Assembly (NCBI GenBank): GCA_004362315.1
Contig: SNWL01000006.1
Coordinates: 186,001-250,000 of the forward strand
From: Mycobacterium sp. BK086
GTDB lineage: Bacteria > Actinomycetota > Actinomycetes > Mycobacteriales > Mycobacteriaceae
Length of the DNA: 64,000 bases
Direction of reading: 5' to 3'
Positions 29,313 to 64,000 of this stretch are shown piece after piece (positions within the stretch are counted from its first letter, which is position 1; each line of letters begins with the position of its first letter). The translations under genes and the position numbers were made by a program. Below the pieces are notes generated by a model. It was given only the letters and a program-made list of their open reading frames with translations. It searched no databases and was not told the DNA's origin.

Positions 29313-30698
29313 CTATACAGCGGCAAGACGGCGCGGTAGGCGCAGCAGACCCGCCAAATCGGCAGCGGCCTTCTCGCCGGACACCGTCGCGGTGCACATG
29401 TTCGACGACGAGCGGAAAACCCCCGCCAGCCGGATGCGCGACTTGACCGCGGCCTGCCTGGCCTGGAACTGGCCGAGGTCCTTGTACAGGCCCGGCCTGC
29501 TGTAGACGATCACCTCGTTCCAGCGCGCGATGCGGGTGTAGTCCACGGTGTCGGTCAGCCCGGGGATCACCTTCTCCATCCGGCTCAGGATCTTGTGGCG
29601 GACGGTGTCGTCGTCATCGTCGATGATCTTCTCGGCGAACTCCGTCATGGTCAGGATGTCAAGCAGCCCATGACCTTCCGGTGCACGCCCCGGCGCCTTG
29701 TTGTGCTCGCAGGTGAACCCCATGATGTCGGGATCGACCGGCTCGGGGATGTTGATCACAGACGCGACGATGCCCTTGGGCTTGCGTGTGACTCCGGTGT
29801 TCATGACCACACACTTCGTGTAGCGCAGGCCGCGCAGGAACTGTTCGGAGTACGCGTCGAACCGTCCGGGTGCCATGGCGGGAATCGTGTCACCGCGCGC
29901 GGTCAGAACCGCACCCGAACCGCTGTCGGTGTGGGACACACCGTCGGCGTCGGTCCATATCACCGTGACACCGTCGCGACTCTCCGTGATCTCATGCACG
30001 GTTGCGGACAGCCGAATGTCCAATCCTGTTGACAGGCGGTCGATATACGTCGAGTAGCCATCCCGGAAGGCGTACAGCTTGCTACCCAGGATGTTGTAGA
30101 GCATGAAGAACAGCTCGAGATTGGAGATGGCATCGCCGCGCACACCGAGAACACCGCGGACCGTCGAGTTGATCACATAGTCGTACACCTCGCCGGACAA
30201 TCCGAGATGCAGCGAGCAGTACTCCCGCGGGGTCATGGTGTCGAATGCCGAAGCGCGCGAAAGGTCTTCGTAGTTCAGCAGCTTGCTCGCCCGGGTCGCG
30301 TCGACGCCGAACCGGGCCATCAGCGCCTTCGACTTCAGCGATACCAGCGGGGTCCTGAGGATGTCGGAGAACAGGTGATCCGACCGCAGGTTGTGAATCA
30401 CGTTGTCACGGGCGAATCCGATGATCGAGCCCGCCGGGATCAGGTCGGGTCCACTGCCGATTTCATGGGCGAGCTTCACCACCGGCTCGTAGGCGCTCGG
30501 CAGGATCGTCGCGCCTTCCTCCATGAGGTAGCCCTGCTCGCGGTGGGTGTGGATCATGCCGCCGGTCCGATCGCGCTTCTCCAGGACGACACTCGGAATG
30601 CCTTGTTCGCGAAGGCGATACGCCGCCGTCAGTCCCGATGGGCCGGCTCCGACGATGAAGACCGGCCCGGCATCGACCTGGGCATCGGTGGTGGTCAT
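29313..30698 (-). CDS. FAD-dependent oxidoreductase, amine-oxidase/protoporphyrinogen-oxidase fold
   Basis: This is a 461-residue flavoprotein. The ADP-binding loop is VFIVGAGPSGLTAAYRL (13-29), followed by the GG motif (RTGGMIHT). The segment EHNKAPGRAPEGHG (331-344) is shared almost word for word with the enzymes at 42.1, 50.7, 52.8 and 61.1 kb. The fold is that of PF01593 desaturases/oxidases; substrate unknown. ATG 30698 overlaps the TetR stop by 4 bases. Operon order is AveC-like, TetR, this gene. Confidence 0.87.
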   Translation of the reverse strand: MTTTDAQVDAGPVFIVGAGPSGLTAAYRLREQGIPSVVLEKRDRTGGMIHTHREQGYLMEEGATILPSAYEPVVKLAHEIGSGPDLIPAGSIIGFARDNVIHNLRSDHLFSDILRTPLVSLKSKALMARFGVDATRASKLLNYEDLSRASAFDTMTPREYCSLHLGLSGEVYDYVINSTVRGVLGVRGDAISNLELFFMLYNILGSKLYAFRDGYSTYIDRLSTGLDIRLSATVHEITESRDGVTVIWTDADGVSHTDSGSGAVLTARGDTIPAMAPGRFDAYSEQFLRGLRYTKCVVMNTGVTRKPKGIVASVINIPEPVDPDIMGFTCEHNKAPGRAPEGHGLLDILTMTEFAEKIIDDDDDTVRHKILSRMEKVIPGLTDTVDYTRIARWNEVIVYSRPGLYKDLGQFQARQAAVKSRIRLAGVFRSSSNMCTATVSGEKAAADLAGLLRLPRRLAAV

Positions 30699-31303
30699 CC
30701 TGAGGTTCCCTTCTTGTGGACGACGAGAGATGAGAGAACGAAGTCGGCCACCATGGCGCGTTCGGCCTCGGCGTCGAGGTCTTCCCGCAACATCAGCATC
30801 AGGTAGACACCGCGCAGCCATTCGACGACCCGCTCGTCGCTGACGTCCGGCCGGAGCTCACCCTGCTCACGGCCGCGGCGCAGCATCGGCCCGAGGACGT
30901 CGGCGACGATGGCCTGCATCGCCGAGTCGTGCCCGGTGATCAACCGGTGCAGGGACACCGTCGTCGTGGTGTCGAGCAGGTGATGCAGTTCGGGATCCGA
31001 ACGCGCGGCATCGACGGTGGCGATCGATGTTTCGACGAGCAGCTCTGCGAACGACGCGTCCTGCGCGGCGATGGGTCGGATGCCCTCACCCAGCTCCTGC
31101 AGCCGCCCGACGATTGCGGCCTCGGTGATCTCGGGGCGGGTGAGGCCGAGCCGGTAGACACCGGTGCGGCCGATACCAGCCTCCTTGGCGATGTCGTGCA
31201 TGGTGGTCCGGTCGACCCCGAAGCGAGCGAAGCAGCGACGGGCCGCGGCCACGACGCGACTGAGCAGAACGGGGTCGTGGTTCTCGGCAAGCATGGCAGC
31301 CAT
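30695..31303 (-). CDS. TetR-family transcriptional regulator
   Basis: This is a 202-residue TetR protein. The HTH (about 15-60) reads FGVDRTTMHDIAKEAGIGRTGVYRL. It lies between an AveC-like gene (TAA immediately followed by its ATG at 31303) and an FAD oxidoreductase gene (ATGA overlap), so it is translated as part of the operon it probably controls. A GGAAC-N7-GTTCC element upstream of the operon (32390-32406) is a candidate operator. An in-frame ATG at 31294 is an alternative start. Confidence 0.87.
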   Translation of the reverse strand: MAAMLAENHDPVLLSRVVAAARRCFARFGVDRTTMHDIAKEAGIGRTGVYRLGLTRPEITEAAIVGRLQELGEGIRPIAAQDASFAELLVETSIATVDAARSDPELHHLLDTTTTVSLHRLITGHDSAMQAIVADVLGPMLRRGREQGELRPDVSDERVVEWLRGVYLMLMLREDLDAEAERAMVADFVLSSLVVHKKGTSG

Positions 31304-32371
31304 TTAACCGGCGCCCCCGTACGTGTGTTGCAGTTGATCGAGGTACTGGTTGGGGCAGAGCGGTTTTCCGGGCTGGCCGCAATAGATGCTGCCCTGTTGG
31401 TAGGACGGCAATACCGGGATGCTGTCCACGTCGCCAGTCATCGACATCCAGTCGTTGGGAATCTGGTAGGCGGCCACAGTGGTGAAGCCGGCCCATCCGA
31501 TGACCGCGAGGGTCGACAAACCTGTCTTGGCCTTCGACCCGAGCGCGAGTGCGTCGACATCGCGATCGACCGCACACCGGCCGTTCGCATCCCGGGAGTC
31601 GCGCAGCCAGGTGAACATCAGGCAGTAGGCGGAGATGAAGAGCAGCTCCGTGACGGGCAGCCGGTGCGTCGTATCTGCCCACAGGGTCAACGCATTCGGC
31701 GACGAGATGTAGGTGTAGACGCCGGTGCGATTCCACGTGGTGGCCAGGCACCCGAACACCGCCATGAACGTCACGAGCACGATCGCGTACAGGGCGACGG
31801 TGCTGACCCGCGGCAGCCGTCTGCGTAGGAGATCGAGATAGGCGCAGCCGACGATGGCGGCGCCGACACCGAGCCAGATGTAGGCGGGCATACACCACCC
31901 AAGACTCCAGGCCCAGCGTTCCCCTTGGGGCGCCGCGAATCCGGGAAATTGGGCGGCCCAGGTGCCCAGGTTGAGCGAGTGCGCATTCATCGCCCAGGTG
32001 GGGTTGAACATTTGACACATCACGTCCAGTACCGACGCGAAAAGCCCACCGAGGAAGAGCTTTCCGTCCAATGTCACCGTGCGTGACCGGTATGCGGGCC
32101 GCAGCAACGAGCACCAGAGCAGGAGCACGAACACCGAGAGGCTGAGCCCCTCGGTCAGCCGGATCACCCATTCGAAGGCGTACGGATCGGGGCCCGGATC
32201 GACGGGCCGAGCCTGTGGCGATGTCAGCCAGCCGGCCCAGCACGTGATGGCCAGGCCCACCAGCGCCGCGCCACCGCACGCCCAGACGAACACGGTGCCT
32301 GCCGGCCGCGCACGTCGGGCACCGGTGGCGTCCTGCTCGGCCACCGCGTCCGTCGCATCCGTCACCGCCAC
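31304..32371 (-). CDS. AveC-like (spirocyclase-family) integral membrane protein
   Basis: This 355-residue protein has about six to seven hydrophobic helices and a hydrophilic Cys/Pro-containing tail (SIYCGQPGKPLCPNQY). It resembles proteins annotated as the spirocyclase AveC family, named after the avermectin spiroketal cyclase; related proteins are common in mycobacteria and their reactions are mostly unknown. It is first in an operon with TetR and an FAD oxidoreductase. A second AveC-like gene at 60.0 kb has the same pairing (AveC then FAD oxidoreductase), which points to a shared two-enzyme step in the membrane. Confidence 0.7.
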   Translation of the reverse strand: MAVTDATDAVAEQDATGARRARPAGTVFVWACGGAALVGLAITCWAGWLTSPQARPVDPGPDPYAFEWVIRLTEGLSLSVFVLLLWCSLLRPAYRSRTVTLDGKLFLGGLFASVLDVMCQMFNPTWAMNAHSLNLGTWAAQFPGFAAPQGERWAWSLGWCMPAYIWLGVGAAIVGCAYLDLLRRRLPRVSTVALYAIVLVTFMAVFGCLATTWNRTGVYTYISSPNALTLWADTTHRLPVTELLFISAYCLMFTWLRDSRDANGRCAVDRDVDALALGSKAKTGLSTLAVIGWAGFTTVAAYQIPNDWMSMTGDVDSIPVLPSYQQGSIYCGQPGKPLCPNQYLDQLQHTYGGAG

Positions 32372-32922: not shown

Positions 32923-33732
32923 ATGGGGCAAGTTGCTCCGGCAACGCCTCAGCGAAGCCTGGCCCGTGGCGCTGTGTCGGCGGTGTCAAAACCAGCAATC
33001 GCGGTGGGGGGCTTCGTCGCGATGTGTCTGGACACCTTCGTGCTGATGTTCAAGCCGCCGTTCGCCTGGCGTGAGTTCCTATTGCAGAGCTGGTTCGTGG
33101 CACGCGTGTCGATCGTGCCGACCATCATGCTGTCGATACCGTTCACCGTTCTCACGGTGTTCGTGCTGAACATCCTGCTCATCGAGTTCGGTGCCGCCGA
33201 CTACTCCGGCACCGGCACCGCGCTCGGGGCCATCACGCAGATCGGTCCCGTCGTCACCGTGCTCGTGGTGGCCGGCGCCGGCGCCACCGCCATGTGCGCG
33301 GATCTCGGCGCGCGGACCATCCGCGAGGAGCTCGACGCGCTGCGGGTTCTCGGTATCAACCCGATCCAGTCGCTCGTCGTGCCGCGGGTCCTGGCCGCCA
33401 CCGGCGTCGCCCTCCTGCTGAATTCGATCGTGTCGGTCATCGGACTGGGCGGCGGTTTCCTGTTCTCCGTCTTCGTTCAGCACGTGACGCCCGGTGCGTT
33501 CGCCGCCGGGATGACGATCCTCGTCGGTCCGGTCGAAGTGATCGTCGCCCTGTGCAAGGCCGCGGTCTTCGGCCTGGCGGCCAGCCTGATCGCCTGCTAC
33601 AAGGGCATCTCGGTGGGCGGTGGTCCGGCGGGTGTCGGTAATGCGGTCAACGAGACGGTCGTGCTCTCCTTCATGGCCCTGTTCTTCATCAACGTCATCG
33701 CGACCGCCATCGGCGTCGAGGCGGCGAAATGA
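32923..33732 (+). CDS. yrbEA: MCE-system ABC permease, YrbEA
   Basis: This is a 269-residue MlaE/YrbE-type integral membrane permease, the first gene of a complete mce operon. It has the family's EELDALRVLGINPIQSLVVPRVLA segment (about 141-164) between membrane helices. YrbEA and YrbEB form the inner-membrane channel of Mce lipid importers, driven by a separately encoded ATPase (MceG/Mkl). GGAGG precedes the ATG by 5 bases. It overlaps yrbEB by 4 bases. The subtype number of the operon cannot be fixed from sequence alone. Confidence 0.93.
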   Translation: MGQVAPATPQRSLARGAVSAVSKPAIAVGGFVAMCLDTFVLMFKPPFAWREFLLQSWFVARVSIVPTIMLSIPFTVLTVFVLNILLIEFGAADYSGTGTALGAITQIGPVVTVLVVAGAGATAMCADLGARTIREELDALRVLGINPIQSLVVPRVLAATGVALLLNSIVSVIGLGGGFLFSVFVQHVTPGAFAAGMTILVGPVEVIVALCKAAVFGLAASLIACYKGISVGGGPAGVGNAVNETVVLSFMALFFINVIATAIGVEAAK

Positions 33733-34583
33733 CGACGGCTCGGCCCAGCAAGCGATTGGGCAGGCTCAGCGGCGCGGCCAGAGGATTCGGCAAGGGGTGG
33801 GAAGCCGTCGGATTCCAGATGGCGTTCTACACCCGAACCATCGCGGAGATCCGAAACGCGTTCGTACACTACAAACTCGAGATCATCCGGCTCATCGCGC
33901 AGATGAGCTTGGGCACCGGCGCCCTGGCCGTCATCGGCGGAACCGTCGTGATCATCGGATTCCTCACGCTCTCCGCGGGCGCGATCATCGCCGTCCAGGG
34001 CTACAACTCACTGGCCGGTATCGGTGTGGAAGCACTCACCGGCTTCATCTCGGCCTACGCCAACGTCCGGATCATCGCCCCCGTCGTGGCCGGCATCGGC
34101 CTGGCCGCGACGATCGGCGCGGGCGCTACCGCCCAACTCGGCGCAATGCGCATCAGCGAGGAGATCGACGCCCTCGAAGTGATGGGCATCCGGTCGATCG
34201 CCTACCTGGCCTCCACCCGCGTCGTGGCCGGTGTCATGGTCGTCATCCCGCTCTACTGCATCGCGGTGATTGCCTCGTTTTTCGCCGCGCGGATGGGCAC
34301 CACCTTTGGCTACGGGCAGTCCACTGGCGTCTACGACCACTACTTCAATACGTTCCTGCATTCGACCGACCTGATCTGGTCGTTCTTTCAAGCGGTCGTG
34401 ATCGGCATCGTCGTGATGCTGGTGCACACCTACTACGGGTACACGGCCACCGGCGGACCGGCCGGCGTCGGTGAGGCGGTCGGTCGCGCGGTGCGCACCT
34501 CGCTCATCGCCGCCGCATTCGTCTCGGTCATCATCACGCTGTCGGTGTACGGGCAGTCCGGCAACTTCGACCTTTCCGGGTAG
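33729..34583 (+). CDS. yrbEB: MCE-system ABC permease, YrbEB
   Basis: This 284-residue partner permease has the same conserved cytoplasmic segment (ISEEIDALEVMGIRSIAYLASTRV, about 152-175), typical of the MlaE family. It pairs with YrbEA in the plasma membrane. The start overlaps the yrbEA stop (ATGA) and the stop is 2 bases before mceA, so translation is coupled. Confidence 0.93.
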   Translation: MTTARPSKRLGRLSGAARGFGKGWEAVGFQMAFYTRTIAEIRNAFVHYKLEIIRLIAQMSLGTGALAVIGGTVVIIGFLTLSAGAIIAVQGYNSLAGIGVEALTGFISAYANVRIIAPVVAGIGLAATIGAGATAQLGAMRISEEIDALEVMGIRSIAYLASTRVVAGVMVVIPLYCIAVIASFFAARMGTTFGYGQSTGVYDHYFNTFLHSTDLIWSFFQAVVIGIVVMLVHTYYGYTATGGPAGVGEAVGRAVRTSLIAAAFVSVIITLSVYGQSGNFDLSG

Positions 34584-34585
34584 CG

Positions 34586-35920
34586 ATGTTCGACGACCGA
34601 AGGAACATGCGTATCAAGCCGGCCTGGTGGACGGCCATCCTGCTCGCGCTGATCGTCTTTCTGGTGCTGATGACGATCACCTTGTTCACCGGCACATTCC
34701 GCAGCTTCGTAGCGGTGACGCTGACGTCGGACCGATCGGGACTGATCCTGGAATCCGGCGGGAAGGTCAAGCTGCGCGGGGTGCAGGTCGGCCGTATCGC
34801 CTCGGTCACGGGGACCGGCCGCAATGTCTCCGTGCGGCTGAACCTCTTTCCCGAGGCCGTCGCCGACATCCCGCAGAATGTCGGCGCACAGATCAAGGCG
34901 ACCACGGCATTCGGCGCCAAATACGTCGACCTGATCTACCCGGATCACCCTAGTCCACAACGGATTACGGCCGGAACGGTCTTGACGTCTCGCAATGTCA
35001 GCACCGAGGTCAACACCGTCTTCGAGAACCTGAGCAAGTTCATCACGAAGCTCGACCCGATGAAGCTCAACGCCACACTGACCGCCATCGCCGATGGCGT
35101 ACGCGGACAGGGTGAGCGGATCGGCCAGGCGACGGTCGATGCCAACCAGGTCCTGCTCGCGATCAATCCGCGAATGGACACCGTCGCCGAAGACTGGCGC
35201 TCCTTCAAGGGATTTTCCGATGCGTACGCCGGCGCCGCATCGGACATCATGAAGATACTGGACTCGGCCAGCGTCACCAGCACGACGATCACCGATCACT
35301 CCGCGCAGCTCAACACCGCACTTCTCAACAGCATCGGCTTCTCTCAGAGTGGCGCAAATGTGCTCGGCCGCAACGGCAACGATCTGGTGCACCTGATGGA
35401 CACGCTGGTCCCGACAACCGATCTGCTGCACAAGTACGACCCGACCTTCACCTGTACCTTGCAGGGCTCCGTGTGGTTCCTCAACAACGGCGGCCTGGAA
35501 GCGATGGGCGGCAACAAGAAATCGGTCATCCTCGACGCCGCCCTGATGCCGGCCGAGGATCCGTACAAGTACCCGGACAACCTGCCGATCGTCGCCGCCA
35601 AGGGCGGACCGGGCGGCAAGCCGTCCTGCGGGTCCCTTCCCGACCCGAGCAAGAACTTCCCGGTGCGCCAATTGGTGACCAACACCGGCTGGGGTACCGG
35701 CCTGGACTTGCGCCCGAACCCAGGCACCGGCAACCCGTGGCTGTACAACTGGTTCCCGGTCACCAAGGGTGTGCCGGAACCGCCACGGCCGCATGGGGAC
35801 GGCGTTCCGGCGATCGGCCCGGTCCCGTATCCGGGCGCACCGCCCTACGGCGCTCCCCTCTACGGACCAGATGGCGCCCCGCTGTATCCGCCAGGCCCCG
35901 CGTATCCCCCCGGATCCTGA
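34586..35920 (+). CDS. mceA: MceA, lipid-import protein
   Basis: This is a 444-residue Mce protein. A single N-terminal helix (about 14-37) anchors it in the plasma membrane, followed by the MCE domain (FVAVTLTSDRSGLILESGGKVKLRGVQVGRIASV, about 43-76) and a long helical region that forms the hydrophobic tunnel in Mce complexes. The C-terminal about 40 residues are a Pro/Gly/Tyr repeat (PGAPPYGAPLYGPDG), expected to be disordered. Residue 8 is also a methionine, so a slightly shorter start is possible. Confidence 0.92.
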   Translation: MFDDRRNMRIKPAWWTAILLALIVFLVLMTITLFTGTFRSFVAVTLTSDRSGLILESGGKVKLRGVQVGRIASVTGTGRNVSVRLNLFPEAVADIPQNVGAQIKATTAFGAKYVDLIYPDHPSPQRITAGTVLTSRNVSTEVNTVFENLSKFITKLDPMKLNATLTAIADGVRGQGERIGQATVDANQVLLAINPRMDTVAEDWRSFKGFSDAYAGAASDIMKILDSASVTSTTITDHSAQLNTALLNSIGFSQSGANVLGRNGNDLVHLMDTLVPTTDLLHKYDPTFTCTLQGSVWFLNNGGLEAMGGNKKSVILDAALMPAEDPYKYPDNLPIVAAKGGPGGKPSCGSLPDPSKNFPVRQLVTNTGWGTGLDLRPNPGTGNPWLYNWFPVTKGVPEPPRPHGDGVPAIGPVPYPGAPPYGAPLYGPDGAPLYPPGPAYPPGS

Positions 35921-35957
35921 ACCACCCAGCCACGAAGCGCATACCAAGGAGAAGTAG

Positions 35958-36986
35958 GTGCGAGACAACCTGGCAGGCGCCGTCTGGCGACTCGCCATCT
36001 TCGTGATGGTCTGCGTGCTGGGCATTTTCGCGATCTTCGCGATCTTCGCGCAGTTGCGATTCCAGGACGAGGACACCTACCGGGCCGAATTCAGCGATAT
36101 CACCGGGCTGAAGTCCGGTGCCTTTGTCCGGATCGCCGGCGTGGAAGTCGGCAAGGTCAGCGATATCTCGATCCGTCCCGACACGATCGTCACGGTTTCC
36201 TTCACCACCGATCAATCCGTGGTCCTGACGCACGGCTCGCGCGCGGTCATCCGCTGGGACAACCCGCTGGGCGACCGCTACCTCGAACTCCAGGAAGGTG
36301 CCGGCGACACCAAGCGGCTGCTCCCGGGCCAGACCATCCCGGTCAGCCAGACCGCCCCCTCGGTCGACCTCGACGCGCTGATCGGTGGTTTCAAGCCGTT
36401 GTTCCGCGCTCTGGATCCCGAGCAGGTCAATGCCCTTACCGGACAACTGATCCAGGCCTTGCAGGGGCAGGGCGGCACCATCAATTCGTTCCTGAGCCAA
36501 ACGGCGCAGTTCACCAGCACACTGGCCGACCGCGACGATCTGATCGGACAGGTCATCCACAACCTGAACGTCATGCTCGGGTCACTCGCCGAGCAGAACG
36601 GCCAATTCGACAAAGCCATCAAGACCACATCCGAACTCGTGAAGGGGCTGTCCGCCCGGCGCGACGACATCACCAACGCGGTCGCCTACACCAACGCGGC
36701 GACGGGGTCGATCGCCGATCTGATGTCGGCGGCCCGTCCCCCACTGCGCGACACCGTCGAACAGACCGACCGGGTGGCAGGTCTGGCGATGGGCGACTAC
36801 GACTTCCTGGACCACCTGCTCGCCACCCTGCCCGACGCCTACCGCGCGTTGGCCAGGCAAGGCGTGTACGGCGACTTCTTCAGCTTCTACCTGTGCGATC
36901 TCTTCCTGAAGATGAACGGTAAAGGCGGACAACCGGTTTACATTAAAATGGCCGGTCAGGACACTGGGAGGTGTGCGCCCAAGTGA
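35958..36986 (+). CDS. mceB: MceB, lipid-import protein
   Basis: This is a 342-residue Mce protein with an N-terminal membrane helix (about 11-33) and an MCE domain (YRAEFSDITGLKSGAFVRIAGVEVGKVSDI). GTG at 35958 follows AAGGAGAAGTAG. It ends in a GTGA overlap with mceC. It is shorter than the other Mce proteins of the operon and lacks a Pro-rich tail, as usual for MceB. Confidence 0.92.
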   Translation: MRDNLAGAVWRLAIFVMVCVLGIFAIFAIFAQLRFQDEDTYRAEFSDITGLKSGAFVRIAGVEVGKVSDISIRPDTIVTVSFTTDQSVVLTHGSRAVIRWDNPLGDRYLELQEGAGDTKRLLPGQTIPVSQTAPSVDLDALIGGFKPLFRALDPEQVNALTGQLIQALQGQGGTINSFLSQTAQFTSTLADRDDLIGQVIHNLNVMLGSLAEQNGQFDKAIKTTSELVKGLSARRDDITNAVAYTNAATGSIADLMSAARPPLRDTVEQTDRVAGLAMGDYDFLDHLLATLPDAYRALARQGVYGDFFSFYLCDLFLKMNGKGGQPVYIKMAGQDTGRCAPK

Positions 36987-45515: not shown

Positions 45516-45531
45516 TCCGTCGACGCTTTCG

Positions 45532-45551: not shown

Positions 45552-45560
45552 ATCTTCAGA

Positions 45561-45577: not shown

Positions 45578-45603
45578 CCATAGCAGTCAGGTTCCATTTT
45601 GTG

Positions 45604-50671: not shown

Positions 50672-50682
50672 CGGTTGCTCCT

Positions 50683-52008: not shown

Positions 52009-52727
52009 GCTGGAATCCTTTCGCGGGTATCAGCCAGGCGCGGCAGTGCCTTGCGAATCGTGTACGTCATCACGAAGAACCACACCCAGAACGTCACAAA
52101 CGGCAGGTAGAACCCGAACAGCCCGTTCCACGCGAACGGGCCTGTCTTGAAAAAGAAGATGATGCTCAACGGGATGAGGTCGAGCATGAAGAACACGTTG
52201 AACCAGCCGACCCACCTCGGGATCAGCGGGTCGGGATCCGAGTCGGCGAAGGACGCGTAGATCAGCGACAGGACGACGAAGTAGAACGGCGCGATCACGC
52301 CGAGGAATTGCAGCCAGGCAATATCGTTGAGCAGCAGTACCAAATCCGGCGATCGGTCACCGCGGAACGCTGCCGTCAGCCACCAGCCCGCCGGATAGGC
52401 GGTGAGCAAAACATTGGTGGTTCCTGCGATCAGTTGACACATCGTCAGCAGCCCTACCCGACCCTCCACGCCGGCGATGAGCTTGGCCAGGATCGCCGTC
52501 CACGGCACGTAGAACATCGACCCGACGAGCACCAGCACCATGCCCATCTTGATCAGCAGCGAATTGTCTTGGTAAATCTCAGCGATCTGCGCTGCACCCC
52601 AGCTCGGCGGTTGCGACGGAAAGAACCGGGCCAACGGGAGGATGCCCACCATCAGGAAGGCGATGTAGACGAATCCGCTCCACGAAGCCCGGCGCAGTAA
52701 TCGAAGGTTTGCCTCTGGCGACATCAT
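52005..52727 (-). CDS. Small polytopic membrane protein, paralogue 2 (GPFAWNG family)
   Basis: This is a 240-residue protein with about six to seven helices; it has GILPLARFFPSQPPSWGAAQIAEIYQDN near the N-terminus and IIFFFKTGPFAWNGLFGFYLP near the C-terminus, as in the 49.9 and 57.5 kb proteins. It is the first gene of the operon. GGAGGG lies 7 bases upstream of ATG 52727. Function unknown; a membrane enzyme or a subunit anchoring the FAD oxidoreductase would fit. Confidence 0.8.
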   Translation of the reverse strand: MMSPEANLRLLRRASWSGFVYIAFLMVGILPLARFFPSQPPSWGAAQIAEIYQDNSLLIKMGMVLVLVGSMFYVPWTAILAKLIAGVEGRVGLLTMCQLIAGTTNVLLTAYPAGWWLTAAFRGDRSPDLVLLLNDIAWLQFLGVIAPFYFVVLSLIYASFADSDPDPLIPRWVGWFNVFFMLDLIPLSIIFFFKTGPFAWNGLFGFYLPFVTFWVWFFVMTYTIRKALPRLADTRERIPA

Positions 52728-52770: not shown

Positions 52771-52840
52771 TACTGCATTTATAGCGTTACTGTCTCAAAA
52801 AACAAACTGCTCGCAGAACCACAACGGGGTGAACGCTGGA

Positions 52841-56336: not shown

Positions 56337-57481
56337 CCGCCGCCTCCGCACCGGAGTTGGCCGCGATCCGATCAGCGGTGCGGCAACTCGTCGAGTCATT
56401 CGGCGCCGCCGACTACTACCAAGCACAGGTCGACCAGGGCGGGCACTGCGCGGAGCTGTGGAATGCCCTGGGCGCCAGCGAATATCTCGGGGTCCACCTG
56501 CCGACGGAGTACGGTGGCGGCGGCCTGGGGCTCGGCGAGCTGGCGACCGTCGTCGAAGAGACGGCGTTCGCGGGCTGCCCCCTGCTGGCACTGTTGTTTT
56601 CCGCGGGCGTCACCGGCACCATCCTGGACCGCAGCGCCAGCCCCGGGCAGAAAGAGCGGTGGCTACCCGGTATCGCCACCGGCAGCACCCGGTTGTCTTT
56701 CGCGATCACCGAGCCGGGCGCCGGTTCCAATGCTCACCGGATCTCGACCAGCGCAGTCCGTTCCGGCGATCGGTACATCCTCAACGGTCAGAAAGTGTTC
56801 ATCACCGGTATGGAGTCCGCGGACTGGGTGATGGTGGTGGCCGCGACCGCGGAGTCAGGGCCGGGCCGGCTGTCGGTGTTCATGGTGGCGACGTCGACAC
56901 CGGGACTGACCTGGACCCCGATCCGCACCGTGATGAACCAACCCGACCGCAGTCATCAGGTGTTCTTCGATGACGTCGAAGTGCCCATCGACCACCTCAT
57001 CGGTGACGAGGGCGCGGGCTTGAAGGTCGCGTTCACGGGGCTCAATACCGAACGCATCCTGACGAGTTCGATCTGCACGGGTGTGGGCCGATACGCGCTG
57101 CGCCGCGCGGTGGACTACGCAAAGCAGCGCCAGGTGTGGGACCGGCCGATCGGTGCGCATCAAGCCGTGGCGCACCCGCTGGCCGCCGCCCACATGCGCA
57201 TCGAAGCCGCCCGCGCCGTCACCGACCGCGCATGTGCGGGATACGACGATGACCGGGAAGTCGGTGAATTGGCCAACATGTCAAAGTATCTCGGTGCGGC
57301 CGCCGGATTGGAGGCTCTCGATGCGGCGGTCAACACGCTCGGCGGCAACGGCGTGACCTACGAATACCGGCTGGCGCCCTACTACTGGCTGGTCCGCATG
57401 CTCAACATGGGCCCGGTCTCGAAAGAGATGATCCTGAACTTCGTCGCGGAGCGATCTCTCGGACTACCTAGGAGCTACTAG
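56333..57481 (+). CDS. Acyl-CoA dehydrogenase
   Basis: This is a 382-residue flavoprotein with the FAD/substrate loop FAITEPGAGSNA (123-134), VFITGM (155-160), and E240 in GLNTERIL as the likely catalytic base (isovaleryl-CoA dehydrogenase-type position). The C-terminal GGNGVTYEYRLAPYYW and ERSLGLP complete the FAD contacts. It is single-gene, unlike the heteromeric pair at 2.5-4.9 kb. Its neighbours (kinase, CrtC-like protein) suggest a CoA-thioester step after oxidation by the FAD enzyme. Confidence 0.9.
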   Translation: MTAASAPELAAIRSAVRQLVESFGAADYYQAQVDQGGHCAELWNALGASEYLGVHLPTEYGGGGLGLGELATVVEETAFAGCPLLALLFSAGVTGTILDRSASPGQKERWLPGIATGSTRLSFAITEPGAGSNAHRISTSAVRSGDRYILNGQKVFITGMESADWVMVVAATAESGPGRLSVFMVATSTPGLTWTPIRTVMNQPDRSHQVFFDDVEVPIDHLIGDEGAGLKVAFTGLNTERILTSSICTGVGRYALRRAVDYAKQRQVWDRPIGAHQAVAHPLAAAHMRIEAARAVTDRACAGYDDDREVGELANMSKYLGAAAGLEALDAAVNTLGGNGVTYEYRLAPYYWLVRMLNMGPVSKEMILNFVAERSLGLPRSY

Positions 57482-57484: not shown

Positions 57485-58192
57485 ATGGAATACAGAGTTC
57501 AACGCGTTCTCATCTGGACCGGGCCCGCGATGCTGGTGCTCTGGCTGGGGGCATTCGTGTTCATCGCGGGGTTCATGCCGCCCTCGGCCCCGAGTGACTC
57601 TGCCGCACAGGTGGTTGCGCGCTACGCCCGCGACCACACCGGCATCAAGATCGGCATGGTGATCTCCATGCTCGGTTCGGCGTTGCTGGTGCCCTGGGCG
57701 GTGGCGATCAGTGGCCAGCTCAAGCGGATCCCCGGCGCCAAGGCACTCGCCGACGTCCAGATGGTCTCGTGTGCACTGCTGTCATTGGAGTTCATCACCC
57801 CGATCGGGGTTTGGATGGCCGCCACATTCCGGTACGACGATCGCGGACCGGAGATCACGCAGGCCCTGCACGATCTCGGCTGGATCCTGTTCGTCACCGT
57901 CATCTGGTCGCTGTGGGTTCAGCTGATCGCGATCGGAGCCGCCATCCTCATCGATCGATCCGCGGAACCGGTGCTACCTCGATGGCTCGGATACCTGCAG
58001 ATCTGGGTCGCGATGCTGATCCTCCCCGCAGGGGTGGTGCTGTTCTTCAAGACCGGGCCATTCGCCTGGAACGGCCTCGTCGGCATCTACATACCACTGG
58101 TCGGCTACGCGACCTGGATGATCGTGACGACGGTCGTGATCGACCGCGCGCTGGTCAAACAGATCCGCCAGGCCGCAGCAGCGGCGAGCTGA
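57485..58192 (+). CDS. Small polytopic membrane protein, paralogue 3 (GPFAWNG family)
   Basis: This is a 235-residue protein with about six helices; FIAGFMPPSAPSDSAAQVVARYARDHTGIKIGMVISMLGSALLVPWA and GVVLFFKTGPFAWNGLVGIYIP match the proteins at 49.9 and 52.0 kb. It is the last gene of the 52.8-58.2 kb operon, 3 bases after the dehydrogenase. Function unknown. Its presence in this operon reinforces the link between this membrane family and the FAD oxidoreductases. Confidence 0.8.
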   Translation: MEYRVQRVLIWTGPAMLVLWLGAFVFIAGFMPPSAPSDSAAQVVARYARDHTGIKIGMVISMLGSALLVPWAVAISGQLKRIPGAKALADVQMVSCALLSLEFITPIGVWMAATFRYDDRGPEITQALHDLGWILFVTVIWSLWVQLIAIGAAILIDRSAEPVLPRWLGYLQIWVAMLILPAGVVLFFKTGPFAWNGLVGIYIPLVGYATWMIVTTVVIDRALVKQIRQAAAAAS

Positions 58193-58196: not shown

Positions 58197-59222
58197 TCAG
58201 CGGGCGAAGGTCGCGACCATATTCCTAAACGCCGCATCGCTTTCCGCGCCGGTGATCGGCGGCACGTAGGGAGTGTGCAGCACGATGTGCTCGAGTAGAC
58301 CGTCGAAGCGCGCGAACTGCTCCCGCGCCTCGTCAGGCGTGCCGCTGATCGCGAAGGTCTCCAAGAGTGCGTCCGATGTCGCCTTCTCCAAGGCGGCCGG
58401 GCCCTCGGTGAACAACGCTTGGACCGCAGCGTCTCGGTCGTCCTGCAGTCCCATGAACTCGATCACGGTGGAACTGACCGGGAACGCCACGTAGTTGCCG
58501 ACGTTGATGCGGGCGATGCGACGCGCCTGCTCACGGTCTTCGGAAACACTGCACAGGATCAGCGACGCGATATCGATGTCGGCGGGATCCCGCCCTGCCT
58601 TTTGAGCTCCCGCAGCGATATTGGGCCGCACATGTTCGCTGACGAAGCTCGGTGTGTTGAGGTAGCCGAGCACCCCGTCCGCCACCTCGCCCGCCATCTG
58701 CAGCATGGCCGGCTTGAGCGAGCCCAGGTAGATCGGTATCCGCGGGCGGACCAATGCTCGCCCTCCCCATGGATTGAAGGGGGGTTGGGCCAGCTGCAGG
58801 AAGCGGCCTTCGTGCTCGATCGGTTCACCGGTTTCGAAGTGCCGCCATACCTTGCGAACCGCGTCGATGTACTCCCGCATTCGCGGCAGTGGATGGCTGA
58901 TATCGGCGCCGTTGTATACGTCTGTCCATCCGGCCCCGCCCGTACTGATCCCAAGAATCGTTCGCCCACCGGATATTTCGTCGACGTCGGCGGCGGCGTT
59001 CGCCATCTCGAACGGAGTGCGACTGGCGGCCGTCGCGATTCCGGTCGCCAGCTTGATCCGCGAGGTTGCCCTGGCGTTGAGCGCGTGGGTGATGAACGGG
59101 TTGCGGAAGAATTCGTAGTCCCACAACGAATCGAACCCGGCATCGTCGGCGAGGGCGGCGAGTTCTGGGTAGCGGTCGTATGGCTGGTTGAGCATCGGCA
59201 GCGAGACACCGATACGACTCAT
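58197..59222 (-). CDS. LLM-class flavin/F420-dependent oxidoreductase
   Basis: This is a 341-residue luciferase-like enzyme, paralogous to the one at 43.5 kb (both have LADDAGF-x-S-(I/L)W-x-YE near residue 28 and an LHT-x-YVPP tail). ATG 59222 is chosen with GGAGG 6 bases upstream, over GTG 59228. It is convergent with the membrane-protein gene (4-base gap). An AACGATCGTT element lies 46 bases upstream. Confidence 0.88.
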   Translation of the reverse strand: MSRIGVSLPMLNQPYDRYPELAALADDAGFDSLWDYEFFRNPFITHALNARATSRIKLATGIATAASRTPFEMANAAADVDEISGGRTILGISTGGAGWTDVYNGADISHPLPRMREYIDAVRKVWRHFETGEPIEHEGRFLQLAQPPFNPWGGRALVRPRIPIYLGSLKPAMLQMAGEVADGVLGYLNTPSFVSEHVRPNIAAGAQKAGRDPADIDIASLILCSVSEDREQARRIARINVGNYVAFPVSSTVIEFMGLQDDRDAAVQALFTEGPAALEKATSDALLETFAISGTPDEAREQFARFDGLLEHIVLHTPYVPPITGAESDAAFRNMVATFAR

Positions 59223-59301: not shown

Positions 59302-59916
59302 TCACGTGCTCGCGTACTGCGCAGCGATGCGGTCCCGGAATGCCCGGATCTCGCCGGTGAAGTCATAGTCGTCGCGGCGCAGCGCCGATCGGAAGCACAG
59401 CCCGATCGCATACGACACGAAGACCTCCGCCTCGCGCGCCGGGTCGAGATCCGGCCGGACCGAACCGTCGCGCTGCCCGGTCGCCAGGTGGGCCGCCAGC
59501 TCGGATTCATACTCGGCGATCAACCGATCGAACCAGCCCGCGAACGTCTGCAACGGGCCCGGGGTCTCGAAGGTCAGCACGATCATCGCGCGCATGGTCT
59601 CCGGTTCCCGCTCGACGGCACCGAGCAGATCGTCGAGTTGCCCGAGAACATGGTCCAGACCAGTTCCCGTCCGTTCGCCACGCACCGCAGGCAGCAGCTG
59701 GCGGGCGAACTGCTCGAAGACCGTCTGCAGCAGGGCGTCTTTCGAGCCATACCGATCACGCACCATATTGCGGCTGAAGCCGGCGTTGGTCCCGATCTCG
59801 GCGGCGGTGGTCCGCTCATAACCCTGCTTCGCGAACAACTCGATGGCGGACGCGACCAGCGCGAGGGTGGATTCCTCGACGCGTTCCCGGTTCGACTTGG
59901 GCTGGCGCTTCACCAT
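59302..59916 (-). CDS. TetR-family transcriptional regulator
   Basis: This TetR protein has about 204 residues. The HTH region (about 15-60) reads ELFAKQGYERTTAAEIGTNAGFSRNMVRDRYG. ATG 59916 is preferred over GTG 59925. It is divergent from the AveC-like gene at 60022, and the gap has three overlapping or adjacent palindromes built from CTGTT/AACAG, so this regulator very likely represses itself and the AveC-FAD operon. The AACGATCGTT sites are unlike these, so they probably belong to a different regulator. Confidence 0.88.
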   Translation of the reverse strand: MVKRQPKSNRERVEESTLALVASAIELFAKQGYERTTAAEIGTNAGFSRNMVRDRYGSKDALLQTVFEQFARQLLPAVRGERTGTGLDHVLGQLDDLLGAVEREPETMRAMIVLTFETPGPLQTFAGWFDRLIAEYESELAAHLATGQRDGSVRPDLDPAREAEVFVSYAIGLCFRSALRRDDYDFTGEIRAFRDRIAAQYAST

Positions 59917-60021: not shown

Positions 60022-61128
60022 ATGCCCAATGAACGGCCGTTAACAGCGGGCGTATCCACCCCGGTCGCGGCCGGCCCGAATCCCGATGATGCTGCCCGCA
60101 ATTGGGCCAAGGTATGGGTCGTCCACGGCTTCCTGTGGCTGGCGTTGATCGCCTACTGCTGGTCGATGTGGGTGCTGTCCGGCGATTTCACGCCCAACAC
60201 CCTGGGCCGGGGCCAGGAGCCCACGTGGTACGTCATCCTGGTTCGCTGCGTCGAGGTGGTCTTCGGGATCCTCATCACCGGCTGGATCCTGTGGCACTTC
60301 GTGATCGGGCCCAAACTCCGCACCGGCCGATTCAGTTTCGACGGCCTGTTCTTCCTCGCCGGCTGGCTCATGTTCTTCCAGGAGCCCTGGATCAACATGA
60401 TCACCTACCAGTTCCAGTACGCGACGACGTTCGTCAACTTCGGCAGCTGGCTTCCCCACATCCCCTGGTGGAGCGCGGGCAACGGCCAGCTGATCCCGGT
60501 TCCCATGGTGTACTTCACCGCCTATCTCTGGATGTGCGCCATGTCCGGGTACGCGGGCTCGCGCTACATGACATACCAGCGCCGCAAAGATCCGTCGCGC
60601 AGCGCGCTGCGCCTGATATTGCAGACCTACGGCGTGATGATCATCGGCGACATCATCGTCGAGTTGATCATGACCAGAACCCAGCTGATCAGTTACTCGT
60701 CGACGATTCCGGCGCTGACGATCTTCGCGGGCACCGACCATCAGTGGCCCCTCTACGAGATGTTCAGCTGGCCAGGAACTTTCATCATTTTGTCCTGCCT
60801 GCACTTCTTCCGCGACGACACCGGCCGGTCGTGGCCCGAGCGCGGTATCGACAAGCTCAACTTCAAACGTGAAGGCGTCAAGACGTTCGCGAGGTTCTGC
60901 GCCATCGCCGGCTACTGCCAGCTCGCCATCCTCATCGCCTTCAACATCCCCTACTCGCTCTATGCACTTCATTCGGGACCGATGCCCAAGCCGTTCATCG
61001 AACGGGAATGGCGCAACGGCGGCGTATGCGGACCCACGACCGCATACGACTGCCCCGACCCGGCCAAGCCCATCTCGCGGGAGTCCGCTCCCGAACGTCC
61101 CGAGCTCTTACCCGAGAGGAATCCATGA
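60022..61128 (+). CDS. AveC-like (spirocyclase-family) integral membrane protein
   Basis: This is a 368-residue protein with about six to seven helices and a cytoplasmic-looking tail containing VCGPTTAYDCPDP. It resembles the AveC-like protein at 31.3 kb (aromatic-rich helices, W/F-P pairs, two-cysteine tail) and is likely of the same family. It is first in an operon with an FAD oxidoreductase (4-base overlap), another membrane protein and a phytoene-desaturase-like enzyme. The reaction is unknown. Confidence 0.7.
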   Translation: MPNERPLTAGVSTPVAAGPNPDDAARNWAKVWVVHGFLWLALIAYCWSMWVLSGDFTPNTLGRGQEPTWYVILVRCVEVVFGILITGWILWHFVIGPKLRTGRFSFDGLFFLAGWLMFFQEPWINMITYQFQYATTFVNFGSWLPHIPWWSAGNGQLIPVPMVYFTAYLWMCAMSGYAGSRYMTYQRRKDPSRSALRLILQTYGVMIIGDIIVELIMTRTQLISYSSTIPALTIFAGTDHQWPLYEMFSWPGTFIILSCLHFFRDDTGRSWPERGIDKLNFKREGVKTFARFCAIAGYCQLAILIAFNIPYSLYALHSGPMPKPFIEREWRNGGVCGPTTAYDCPDPAKPISRESAPERPELLPERNP

Positions 61129-62480
61129 CAGTGCACAGCACGGCGGCGGTGATCGGTGGCGGCGCTGCCGGTATGGCGGCCGCCTACGAACTCAAGAAGG
61201 CCGGCTTCGCGGTCACCGTGTTCGAAACCCGCGACCGGGTCGGTGGCCGCATCTGGACCGTCCGCAAGGGTGACTTCGTCATGGACCTGGGCACCGCGGT
61301 GTATCTGGGCACCTACCGCGAAGCGGTCGCGATGATCCACGAGGTGGGCCTGACAGGCGAATTCGTCGAGACGCCGGTGATGTTCGGAATGCCACGGCAG
61401 GGCAAACAGCACTATCTCGACCTCGCCAAGCCGATCCGCTCGAGTGTCTCGACTCAGGTGATCTCCTGGCCCGCGAAGATCAAGGCGCTCCGGCTCTTCG
61501 CCGACGTCTTCAAGCATCGGGCGTCGCTGGGCTACGACACGTACGACGGACTGGCAGAAATCGACACCGAGACGGTGCTCGACTACAGCCAGCGGGTGCT
61601 GAACACCGAACTCGCACGCTATATTTCGGCGCCTTTGGTCAGCGGTACCTGGGTGCACGACGACCACGACACCTCGGTAGCCCTGTTGCACTGGACCGTC
61701 CGCAACATGCTGGTGAAATCGGTGTTCAACCTGACATCCGGTGTCGCCGGCCTGCCGGTGAAGCTCGCGACCCTGGTCGACACGCGACTCGAGCACACCG
61801 TCACCAATGTCACCGACTCCGGTAGTGCGGTGGAGGTGACCTACACGTCGCCGGCGGCGAGCGGCGAGCGCACCGAGACGTTCGACACGGTCGTCATCGC
61901 GACGACGGCAGCTCCGGCTCTGTCGATGTACCCACAGATGGACTCCAACCACCGCGGACTCTACGAGACCGCCCGCTATCACCGCCTCGGCAATGTCTCG
62001 CTTGGCTTTTCGGCCAGACCTGATGACCCGGGCACGTTTTCGATGATCTCGCCGTACGACGATCCCGACACCATTGCGGTGATCGCCGATCACAACAAGG
62101 CGCCCGGACGCGCGCCGGCGGGCAAGGGCCTCATCTCCGTCTTGCTGTCACCGTCCTATCTCGACCGCACCGATGACAAGGACGACCAGCACCTCCTCGA
62201 CCATGCCCTGGAACGCGTGGCCTACTACTACGGGAGCCTGCCCGGCACACTCGAGGAGTACGCGCTCATGCGCTGGCCCGAATCGGTTCCGGTACTGGGC
62301 AAGGGCCGCTTCAAAGTCATCGCCGACTTCCGCAAGAAGATCGATCACGGGGCGCGCGTGCAGTTCGCCAGCGACCTCGACCGCATCCCGGGCCTCAACG
62401 GCGCATTGGTCAGTGGGCAGGAAGCGGCAGCCAGGGTCAACCGGCTGTTCGCCAGTCGCAGGGCGGTACCGGTCAAATGA
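61125..62480 (+). CDS. FAD-dependent oxidoreductase, amine-oxidase fold (H-x-K-A-P family)
   Basis: This is a 451-residue flavoprotein. The dinucleotide loop AAVIGGGAAGMAAAYELKKAG is at 7-27, GG motif RVGGRIWT at 37-44, and signature DHNKAPGRAPAGKGL near residue 324. It is the fifth copy of the family in this window. ATGA overlaps join it to the AveC-like gene before and the membrane-protein gene after, as in the 29-32 kb operon where AveC is also paired with this family. Confidence 0.87.
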   Translation: MTVHSTAAVIGGGAAGMAAAYELKKAGFAVTVFETRDRVGGRIWTVRKGDFVMDLGTAVYLGTYREAVAMIHEVGLTGEFVETPVMFGMPRQGKQHYLDLAKPIRSSVSTQVISWPAKIKALRLFADVFKHRASLGYDTYDGLAEIDTETVLDYSQRVLNTELARYISAPLVSGTWVHDDHDTSVALLHWTVRNMLVKSVFNLTSGVAGLPVKLATLVDTRLEHTVTNVTDSGSAVEVTYTSPAASGERTETFDTVVIATTAAPALSMYPQMDSNHRGLYETARYHRLGNVSLGFSARPDDPGTFSMISPYDDPDTIAVIADHNKAPGRAPAGKGLISVLLSPSYLDRTDDKDDQHLLDHALERVAYYYGSLPGTLEEYALMRWPESVPVLGKGRFKVIADFRKKIDHGARVQFASDLDRIPGLNGALVSGQEAAARVNRLFASRRAVPVK

Positions 62481-63292
62481 CAACCACCAATCTGGCCATC
62501 GCCGAACCACCGTGGACGATGACCACACCGGCCACACCGCAGCTCGTCATCACCGTGATCCTCGGGATCGTCGTGGCCGCGTTCGTCATCGCGGCACTGA
62601 TCGAATGGCGGCGCTCCGGTCGTCCGATCTTCCTGCTGATGCTCGTCGGCGGCTACGTCTGTTCGTTCAACGAGGCCACTGTCGACGTGCTCGGGCACTG
62701 TTACTTTCCCGGTGATGGCGCGATCGCCTACCGGTTCCTGGATCGCAGTGTGCCGGTGTGGGTGGTGCTGGCCTACGTCGTGTTCTTCGGCGGGCTGTCC
62801 TACGTGATGGCCAAGGCATTCCAGAAGGGCGCCAGCCGGTCTCAAATGTGGTCGGGCATCGCGGTATTCGGTGTGCTGAACGTGCTGCTCGAGATCCCGA
62901 TGCTGTCCTCGGGGCTGTACGTCTATTACGGCGACCAGCCCTTCACCGTGGCCGGCTTCCCGATCAGCTGGTTGGTGATCAACAGCCTGGGGTCGCTGTT
63001 CGGCGCAGTGGTGGTGACGAGGCTGGACTGGCTGTTCACCGGGGTGCGCCAGCTGTTCGTGGCGTTCATACCGTTCACCACATACATGGCGTCGTGGGCG
63101 CTGGCGATACCGTACTTCGCCATCACGAACACCGACGCCCCCGGCAGCGTACGGATGATCGCCGCCGCGGTCAGCATCGTGCTCGGCCTGCTCGCCACCG
63201 ACGTCCTGATCCGGTTCGGCACCGGCGAGATGCGTCTGATTCCCCCGCCCCAGAACGCCACGACCAACCCTGAGATGGTGCAATCACGATGA
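62477..63292 (+). CDS. Polytopic membrane protein of unknown function
   Basis: This is a 271-residue protein with about seven hydrophobic helices, an N-terminal soluble stretch of 20 residues and a short tail. The FNEATVDVLGHCYFPGDGAIAYRFLDR segment in the loop after the second helix has potential metal or substrate contacts. It is not clearly in the GPFAWNG family. It may be a membrane cyclase or transporter. Four-base overlaps with both neighbours make it part of the AveC-FAD-desaturase operon. Confidence 0.7.
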   Translation: MTTTNLAIAEPPWTMTTPATPQLVITVILGIVVAAFVIAALIEWRRSGRPIFLLMLVGGYVCSFNEATVDVLGHCYFPGDGAIAYRFLDRSVPVWVVLAYVVFFGGLSYVMAKAFQKGASRSQMWSGIAVFGVLNVLLEIPMLSSGLYVYYGDQPFTVAGFPISWLVINSLGSLFGAVVVTRLDWLFTGVRQLFVAFIPFTTYMASWALAIPYFAITNTDAPGSVRMIAAAVSIVLGLLATDVLIRFGTGEMRLIPPPQNATTNPEMVQSR

Positions 63293-64000
63293 CCAACAAC
63301 ACTTTCGACTACATCGTCATCGGGGCCGGCCACAATGGTCTCTCCGCCGCGTGCACGCTCGGTGAAGCCGGGCAATCGGTTGTCGTCGTCGATCAGTTGC
63401 CGTTCATCGGCGGCCTCTCCGCGAGCCGGGCTTGGGTACCTGAGGCACCCAACCACCTGTTGTCCGTCGGAGCGATGGACGACATGCTGATGGCCCAGAC
63501 ATCGTTGACTCAGGAACTCGGCCTGAAGAAGCATGGCTACGAGCCGATTCCGTTGGACGCGCCATACGGCTGGATCAACGAAGACGGCGACACGCTCCTG
63601 CTGTTCCGCGACTTTGACCGGACGCTCAAGGAGATCAGGCGCTTCTCGAACAAGGATGCGGCGACCTACGCCGAGATCCGGCCGACCCTGGATCTCATCA
63701 TGGACCTGGTCGAAAAGCTGGTGGTGCAATTCCCCTCACTCGGCAAGGCCGAGCTGGCCAGGCTTGCGCTCAAGCTGATGCGGGACAAGAAGTCCCGGGC
63801 ACTACTGCAGAAGATGTTGAAGCTCAGCGTCTTCGAGATGATCTCGGAAACCTTCGAAAGCGATGCCATGCGAGGGCTGTGGGCGTACTGGACGTCCATG
63901 CTCGGGCCTGCCGATTTGGAGGGCACCGGGGTCTACCTGATGGGGTATCACGCCACCCACCGCAAACAGGGCATCCTGCGCCCGCGGGGTGGCATGACCG
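63289..64000 (+). CDS. Phytoene-desaturase-like FAD oxidoreductase (3' end cut by window edge)
   Basis: 237 residues are visible. The dinucleotide loop DYIVIGAGHNGLSAACTLGEAG starts at residue 7, followed by GGLSASR and the DRTLKEIRRFSNKDAATYAEI segment shared with the enzyme at 46.5 kb. It is the last visible gene of the operon beginning at 60022 (ATGA overlap with the membrane protein). It probably desaturates or isomerises an isoprenoid-type substrate. Confidence 0.85.
   Translation, partial: MTNNTFDYIVIGAGHNGLSAACTLGEAGQSVVVVDQLPFIGGLSASRAWVPEAPNHLLSVGAMDDMLMAQTSLTQELGLKKHGYEPIPLDAPYGWINEDGDTLLLFRDFDRTLKEIRRFSNKDAATYAEIRPTLDLIMDLVEKLVVQFPSLGKAELARLALKLMRDKKSRALLQKMLKLSVFEMISETFESDAMRGLWAYWTSMLGPADLEGTGVYLMGYHATHRKQGILRPRGGMT

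Follow-up and report, generated by a model that had tools for sequence, protein, structure and literature searches.

The Mce4/KstR regulon of mycobacteria is devoted to cholesterol uptake and catabolism, AveC is the spirocyclase of avermectin synthesis, and the COX3/COX4 families belong to respiratory oxidases. Herein, we describe a gene cluster of Mycobacterium sp. BK086 that combines an Mce importer with AveC-like and COX3/COX4 proteins. It runs through and beyond the window, i.e., the whole 64,000-nucleotide stretch analysed (assembly GCA_004362315.1, contig SNWL01000006.1, positions 186,001 to 250,000; C4:186001-250000 in genome coordinates). Judged by sequence, the cluster encodes an Mce importer, many flavoproteins (HKAP, named for a shared motif, and CrtO-like), the membrane proteins GPF, AveC and AveD, acyl-CoA ligase, acyl-CoA dehydrogenase (ACAD), hydratase, thiolase, Rieske and P450 proteins, and a carotenoid/stilbene-type dioxygenase. 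The system is real and recurrent, and its description was not found in the open-access literature (subscription papers were outside that search). What is new is the assembly of GPF/AveC with NorEF/NorQD-like proteins; its Mce and acyl-CoA components belong to familiar types.

As in the Mce4/KstR regulon, an Mce importer is accompanied by genes for acyl-CoA ligase, ACAD, ChsH2-like, Rieske and P450 proteins, but the cluster is dominated by GPF, AveC/AveD, HKAP and NorE/NorF/NorQ/NorD-like genes; steroid-ring genes were not part of the search. A likeness to the AveC spirocyclase is suggested by two window proteins (31304-32371 and 60022-61128) that score over the Pfam AveC_like cut-off, whereas the catabolic-type surroundings and the runs of AveC-NorD-NorQ set them apart from it. 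In the open-access literature searched, terms for AveC-like proteins occur solely in taxonomic or unrelated contexts. The cNOR operon norCBQDEF of Paracoccus shares with the cluster a NorQ-type ATPase, a putative VWA-like partner, COX3 (NorE-like) and COX4 (NorF-like). Here, however, no heme-copper subunit I (norB) lies alongside, and GPF or AveC stands at the place of the catalytic subunit. NorQ and NorD are reported to insert iron into cNOR (PMC9976466, PMC13036017), and NorE and NorF are reported to have no known function (PMC13036017).

GPF accompanies orphan COX3/COX4 genes

Across phyla, a conserved genetic link ties GPF to orphan COX3/COX4 (NorE/NorF-like) genes. In the Mycobacterium cluster segments, COX4 followed COX3 in 17 out of 17 cases, and the upstream neighbour was GPF in 14 of the 17 (10 on the same strand, 4 divergent). 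Nine out of 17 further GPF loci had COX3-COX4 beside GPF, including ordinary mycobacteria with the order GPF-GPF-COX3-COX4; in a second genus this unit is divergent from an Mce operon. GPF also occurs on plasmids of Alpha- and Betaproteobacteria. Among 19 plasmid GPF records, which include near duplicates (two of Pseudonocardia, three of Sphingobium, two of R. koreensis), COX3 lies within 1 kb in 16 (15 by hidden Markov model (HMM), one by annotation) and at 2.6 kb in one. A GPF-COX3-COX4 unit is located directly upstream of an Mce operon in Rhodococcus ZPP, and ~4.5 kb downstream of one in R. oxybenzonivorans.

One COX3/COX4 pair was scored against Pfam, and both members exceeded the cut-off (PF00510, 44.1 vs. 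23.8 bits; PF03626 (COX4_pro), 49 vs. 28.9 bits). The BK086 genome has seven COX3 genes but a single COX1 (PF00115, E 1e-5), at C1:1074706-1076034 and ~83 kb from where the C1 stretch described below begins; thus, the majority of COX3 copies lack a subunit I partner. GPF itself matched no Pfam or NCBIfam family as tested, and no relative by sequence was found among solved structures. We consider it highly probable that GPF-COX3-COX4 is one functional unit. Genes of PPDK type and PEP-utiliser type lie beside GPF at L053:2121-7393, and Diaphorobacter (L106) and M. branderi (L116) have pairs with similar annotation; by eye, a PPDK-like gene starts after GPF-COX3-COX4 in one further genome, G414 (L157).

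NorQ- and NorD-like proteins recur as well. A NorQ-type ATPase of the cluster scored 74.4 bits against the CbbQ/NirQ/NorQ C-terminal family (PF08406, cut-off 20.6). A NorD-like protein adjoins NorQ in all six Mycobacterium stretches that hold one. The order AveC-NorD-NorQ is found in genomes G000, G135, G159, G278 and G246, while G322 has COX3-COX4-GPF-NorD-NorQ as one run. G414 has AveC-NorD-one gene-NorQ, and G478 has AveC-NorD with NorQ 14 kb off. The NorQ/NorD-like pair was not found in the stretches of G161, G147, G273 and G155.

Many of the genes recur in distant lineages

Eight HKAP paralogues were found in the BK086 genome at E 1e-10, seven of them within C4:215-265 kb and the eighth in a second cluster at C1:1208 kb. 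The C4 stretch (223 kb) holds 14 GPF, 8 AveC, 1 AveD, 7 HKAP and 3 CrtO genes and 2 COX3-COX4 pairs, one AveC being ~90 kb from the next. The C1 stretch (80 kb) holds 10 GPF, 4 AveD, 2 AveC, 4 CrtO and 1 HKAP genes and 2 COX3-COX4 pairs. Both parts are joined in one 200 kb stretch of G135, with 29 GPF, 10 AveC, 7 AveD and 7 CrtO genes, 4 COX3-COX4 pairs, an RPE65-family gene, one Mce operon and 9 HKAP-labelled genes (7 inside the HKAP clade defined below, 1 off it, 1 outside the tree set). An earlier reading of the window from its letters alone (the sequence-only reading) had proposed a single cluster around the Mce operon; the extension beyond the window and the recurrent NorE/NorF/NorQ/NorD-like partners had escaped it.

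That reading also predicted that the flavoproteins would co-occur with AveC-like and GPF genes and with the window's Mce subtype, and most of this was borne out. HKAP, AveC and GPF occur together in seven large Mycobacterium clusters (G000, G135, G159, G161, G246, G278 and G322), four of which have an Mce operon inside; their families are expanded, with at least 11 GPF and at least 10 AveC each. In 248 Mycobacterium genomes, with up to six candidates per genome scored, HKAP was found in 24 at 1e-30 and in 13 at 1e-100 (the carriers). Among named carriers, proteins 87–96% identical to HKAP 5 are present in M. vinylchloridicum, M. pinniadriaticum, M. triplex and M. rhodesiae JS60. A strict tie of GPF and AveC to the flavoproteins was not supported: both are genus-wide (214/248 and 181/248 genomes, mostly with 1–5 matches each) and mostly occur without HKAP. 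GPF numbers are also high in two genomes that have a single strong HKAP, G147 (at least 11) and G273 (10), and in G254 (9), which has none; G356 has 8 AveC without a strong HKAP.

In a family survey of 121 genomes from 31 genera, HKAP was found in three genomes at E 1e-40 and solely in BK086 at 1e-100. In 296 Actinomycetota genomes (198 genera), GPF was found in 8 and AveC_like in 7, all 7 within the 8, from the same four genera; the chance of sharing four genera is 1.6e-8 by a calculation that ignores relatedness. HKAP reached 1e-100 in 2 of the 296, BK086 and G414.

Outside the family, a large share of the gene set is found again in two distant families of actinobacteria and in one betaproteobacterium. 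G414, from another family, has HKAP, AveC, GPF and Mce genes on several contigs: an HKAP-AveC operon whose HKAP falls inside a Mycobacterium subclade, a run of AveC, AveD, one gene and YrbE-YrbE-Mce, and CrtO and DUF7064 (D7064) genes. It is a small, distant actinobacterial genome (3.5 Mb, 290 contigs) with at least 9 GPF and at least 7 AveC_like matches. In 147 kb of G478 there are two GPF-COX3-COX4 units and three Mce operons, together with two AveC genes and with RPE65, AveD, CrtO, D7064 and Rieske genes; its flavoprotein falls outside the HKAP clade. A Diaphorobacter plasmid (Betaproteobacteria, beetle source) carries within ~33 kb an HKAP (7e-122), two CrtO, GPF-COX3-COX4, APH, D7064, three Rieske-labelled genes and hydratases. 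A membrane family labelled M7, with no Pfam match over cut-off, was seen at L001:17259-18002, L002:8984-9712 and, as a weak match (2e-7), in Diaphorobacter (L106 near 27651-28388).

The Mce operon comprises two YrbE and six Mce genes, and lies among the flavoproteins as the sequence-only reading held. Pfam was run on three of its eight genes (MlaE, Mce4_CUP1 and MlaD matches); the other five were assigned by position and our own HMM labels. The Mce4_CUP1 match does not establish Mce4 orthology or sterol transport. Orthologues of the window MceA, at least 84% identical, are present in G135, G159, G212 and G322; the 8 remaining carriers, and 17 non-carriers that were compared, gave nothing above 64%. 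In G161, G246 and G278, a different Mce operon lies within ~10 kb of GPF. Window positions 15135-28574 hold AMP ligase, thiolase, ChsH2-like, Rieske, P450 and SDR genes, and CaiB, ALDH and ALDH genes, in an order that G135 and G159 retain next to the Mce operon.

Flavoproteins largely retain their membrane partners

The five window flavoproteins (441–464 aa) score 122–162 bits against PF01593 (gathering score 19.8), and a six-frame scan for H.KAP or [DE]..KAP returned just these five. The motif that the sequence-only reading saw in them is thus present in all five, but it is not their private signature. In a profile comparison with solved structures, they matched protoporphyrinogen oxidase best (PDB 3i6d, E 2.8e-42), in which NKKWPHAAPEGK aligns with the motif. 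The motif was therefore dropped as proof of a new family; it is the family version of an older superfamily motif, and a tree was used instead. In the tree, 55 HKAP tips (53 distinct loci; tips L028 and L030 duplicate loci already in the clade) group together, apart from 18 more distant homologues, with a FastTree support of 0.845, in a clade defined post hoc, as two off-clade proteins and the G478 protein were removed once the tree was known. The two off-clade proteins, HKAP-labelled G135 154844 and G147 6096462, lack the motif. The strict motif pattern was matched in 28 of 53. Five of 57 labelled segment genes (length outside 390–500 aa) and 2 of 20 outgroup loci (fewer than 400 residues between stops) were left out of the tree. 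HKAP proteins are like protoporphyrinogen oxidase in PF01593 membership and motif position, but unlike it they form their own clade, and the three of the five that were scored against TIGR00562 all missed its equivalog cut-off of 97.85 (79.1, 74.5 and 69.1 bits). Two HKAP homologues (G155:C1:1013250 and G159:C149:127393) have an in-frame stop within the matched part.

Membrane-protein/flavoprotein pairs were proposed as repeated modules, and the counts agree: 41 out of 57 HKAP-labelled genes (the two off-clade proteins kept) adjoin GPF, AveC or AveD, compared with a mean of 16.9 and a maximum of 28 in 2000 random draws. Since the genomes are related, this excess is not a probability. Partner type follows the tree, with 5 changes over 42 labelled tips vs. 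a shuffled mean of 22.1 (minimum 16), a low count owed in part to synteny common to close genomes. HKAP subfamilies thus largely retain their own neighbour sets across genomes.

With an operon defined by gaps of no more than 150 bp, four window flavoproteins share operons with AveC-like or GPF proteins (GPFAWNG in the sequence-only reading) and the fifth with two luciferase-like (LLM) oxidoreductases, just as proposed: HKAP-TetR-AveC; HKAP-LLM-LLM; GPF-HKAP-GPF; HKAP-APH-DUF7064-ACAD-GPF; and AveC-HKAP-AveD-CrtO-GPF onward. The last is a core operon that continues past CrtO with GPF, AMP ligase, ACAD, ACAD, ECH, GPF and APH. Its order, AveC-HKAP-AveD-CrtO-GPF then AMP ligase-ACAD-ACAD, was found in all seven large Mycobacterium clusters mapped, some of which carry an additional AveD, GPF or HKAP gene or a P450 gene on the opposite strand as insertions; it is a single operon in G000, G135 and G322, and interrupted in the other four. 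AveC-like partners were verified by Pfam at 31304-32371 and 60022-61128; the protein at 62477-63292 (AveD), beside 61125, did not reach PF17198, though it can be aligned with AveC proteins at a common E...Y.Y...P pattern. The genes of this part of the window are as follows (start codons, from a home-made codon-bias gene caller, are approximate).

29313..30698, minus strand: HKAP flavoprotein 1, PF01593 (motif EHNKAPGRAP; start 30698 from codon bias)
30695..31303, minus strand: TetR-type regulator between HKAP 1 and AveC (by eye and own TetR HMM)
31304..32371, minus strand: AveC-like membrane protein, PF17198 (81 bits, cut-off 26.6)
32923..42134, plus strand: YrbE-YrbE-Mce(6) import operon, eight genes (first start 32923 or 33004)
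42131..43462, minus strand: HKAP flavoprotein 2, PF01593 (motif DHHKAPGRAP; in operon with two LLM oxidoreductases)
43459..45581, minus strand: two LLM oxidoreductases (PF00296)
45637..46545, plus strand: DUF1295 membrane protein (Pfam)
46545..48101, plus strand: CrtO/CrtI-type flavoprotein (under CrtO cut-off)
48148..49644, minus strand: carotenoid/lignostilbene-oxygenase family enzyme, RPE65 (Pfam; four His positions retained)
49934..50671, minus strand: GPF membrane protein (no Pfam family; the scan used the longer frame 49934-51175)
50683..52008, minus strand: HKAP flavoprotein 3, PF01593 (motif DHNKAPDRAP)
52005..52727, minus strand: GPF membrane protein (no Pfam or NCBIfam family)
52829..54223, plus strand: HKAP flavoprotein 4, PF01593 (motif ENNKAPDRAP; start now placed at 52829)
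54274..55320, plus strand: APH-type phosphotransferase (PF01636)
55317..56336, plus strand: DUF7064/DUF7065 protein (Pfam), the CrtC/AttH-like protein of the sequence-only reading
56333..57481, plus strand: ACAD (Pfam)
57485..58192, plus strand: GPF membrane protein, subject of an AlphaFold model
58197..59222, minus strand: LLM oxidoreductase (Pfam)
59302..59916, minus strand: TetR-type regulator divergent from the core operon (by eye, own HMM; orthologues in L016-L018)
60022..61128, plus strand: AveC-like membrane protein, PF17198, opening the conserved core operon (143.2 bits, cut-off 26.6)
61125..62480, plus strand: HKAP flavoprotein 5, PF01593 (motif DHNKAPGRAP)
62477..63292, plus strand: AveD-type membrane protein that aligns with AveC proteins (no Pfam family at E 0.1)
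63289..64000, plus strand: CrtO-type flavoprotein, running beyond the window end (L001:289-1860)

From its position, the TetR-type protein at 59302..59916 may regulate the core operon. The RPE65, DUF1295, DUF7064/7065 and CrtO-like proteins that had been named as accompanying enzymes were all confirmed. The RPE65-family enzyme (285.4 bits vs. 27) aligns at four His positions, which we take to be iron ligands, as in lignostilbene/carotenoid cleavage dioxygenases; unlike them, it misses the equivalog cut-offs and has glycine at K134, presumably the functional lysine of LSD-I. A canonical lignostilbene dioxygenase was rejected (NCBIfam equivalog, 244.5 bits vs. cut-off 800), and the beta-carotene ketolase CrtO equivalog was likewise missed (269.4 bits vs. 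1000). The DUF1295 protein presumably resembles steroid reductases.

A putative catabolic system and its alternatives

We favour, with a probability of about 0.5, a reading in which the window would be part of one large catabolic system, linked to Mce and based in the membrane, that oxidises a hydrophobic compound of ring or isoprenoid type. Catabolism is favoured because the membrane modules are repeatedly accompanied by CoA ligase, ACAD, hydratase, thiolase and ChsH2-like genes, and because several lineages have Mce operons next to these. The substrate might be a sterol, triterpenoid, carotenoid or stilbene-like compound. In such a system, Mce would import a large hydrophobic ring or isoprenoid compound, and the flavoproteins would dehydrogenate intermediates held in the membrane. 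Each step would have its own GPF or AveC/AveD partner, which would bind, and perhaps isomerise, cyclise or open, the intermediate within the bilayer. GPF-NorE-NorF would be a stable membrane complex, NorQ/NorD-like AAA+ chaperones would remodel a membrane partner or load metal into it, and the opened product would then be degraded by acyl-CoA steps. More tentatively, and at clearly less than even odds, GPF and AveC/AveD could each represent a new class of membrane-embedded enzyme, or of subunit that presents the substrate; NorQ/NorD-type AAA+ chaperones would mature some of them, and others would be complexed with NorE/NorF-like subunits. The accessory toolkit of nitric oxide reductase (NOR) might then serve membrane enzymes for greasy substrates in general, and the paralogous flavoprotein/membrane pairs might be an Mce-fed assembly line in the bilayer.

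Several observations weigh against the favoured reading. The AlphaFold model of GPF gave no fold match above the helical background, and no His or Cys is conserved at 75% in 161 GPF sequences, so that a metal site in GPF itself is unlikely. COX3 is not nearby at 8 of the 17 further GPF loci (7 in G414, one in BK086) or in 2 of the 19 plasmid contexts. The NorD call is a sub-threshold VWA_2 match (22.7 bits, cut-off 27), and gene labels come from HMM profiles built from BK086 proteins. Just 5 of the 13 carriers, BK086 among them, have the Mce subtype of the window; the predicted co-occurrence with this subtype was thus not supported, and Mce was rejected as an obligatory part, not being universal. 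Weaker HKAP homologues only (1e-40) were found in 23 of the 296 Actinomycetota genomes, 22 of them without GPF or AveC, and the Diaphorobacter plasmid showed neither Mce nor AveC in the 45 kb read.

The alternative that survives best, though we regard it as unlikely, is that GPF-COX3-COX4 serves mainly in electron transfer or proton coupling, passing electrons from flavoproteins, and from mycofactocin-dependent enzymes, to the respiratory chain, whatever the substrate. COX3/COX4 family membership is consistent with it, as are a Streptomyces NBC_00080 plasmid (L114, 8980-9726), where GPF follows mftR-G-A-B-C-D-E-F, a hydroxylase and a flavin reductase with no COX3/COX4 nearby, and a Novosphingobium mftR ~5 kb from GPF. 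MftG is reported to connect mycofactocin oxidation with respiration (PMC11778925). However, GPF lacks a conserved His or Cys that could bind heme or copper, the genome's single COX1 lies at a distance from the clusters, and a full mycofactocin adjacency was found once in the 19 plasmid contexts.

We give less credence still to a biosynthetic role, in which the cluster would make a specialised lipid or terpenoid, the AveC-like proteins would be cyclases as in avermectin synthesis, and Mce would move the lipid. It draws on the AveC family name, on the CrtO/CrtI- and HpnE-like flavoproteins, and on Streptomyces CA-256286, where a GPF-COX3-COX4 unit comes after polyketide synthase and P450 genes. 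No polyketide synthase, terpene synthase or prenyltransferase family was found among the Pfam-scanned proteins (a subset of genes), however, and CoA ligase, ACAD, hydratase, thiolase and Rieske genes recur. No more probable is an island without single function, in which horizontal transfer would have assembled several lipid/aromatic pathways into a shared region rather than a shared pathway: 22 TetR-labelled genes in the 200 kb stretch of G135 suggest many separate signals, and the Mce operon varies between lineages, but much of the same family set is found in distant lineages, and operons combine flavoproteins with membrane partners.

If the catabolic reading is true, the cluster would represent a sizeable route, spread by horizontal transfer, for a class of compound as yet unnamed, and its repeated flavoprotein/membrane pairs would be a new way of handling hydrophobic intermediates. 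The GPF-COX3/COX4 set is a denitrification-free setting for finding the function of NorE/NorF.

Other window genes

Pfam scans covered part of the window genes. Several queries, among them 93-1232, 2196-4058, 4503-6368, 9383-10444 and 62926-63729, were on the wrong strand or in the wrong frame and matched no family, and the true genes at these places were left out. A POT/PTR2 family transporter (7990-9447) and a siderophore-interacting protein (14025-14828) also lie in the window, apparently unrelated to the cluster described here.

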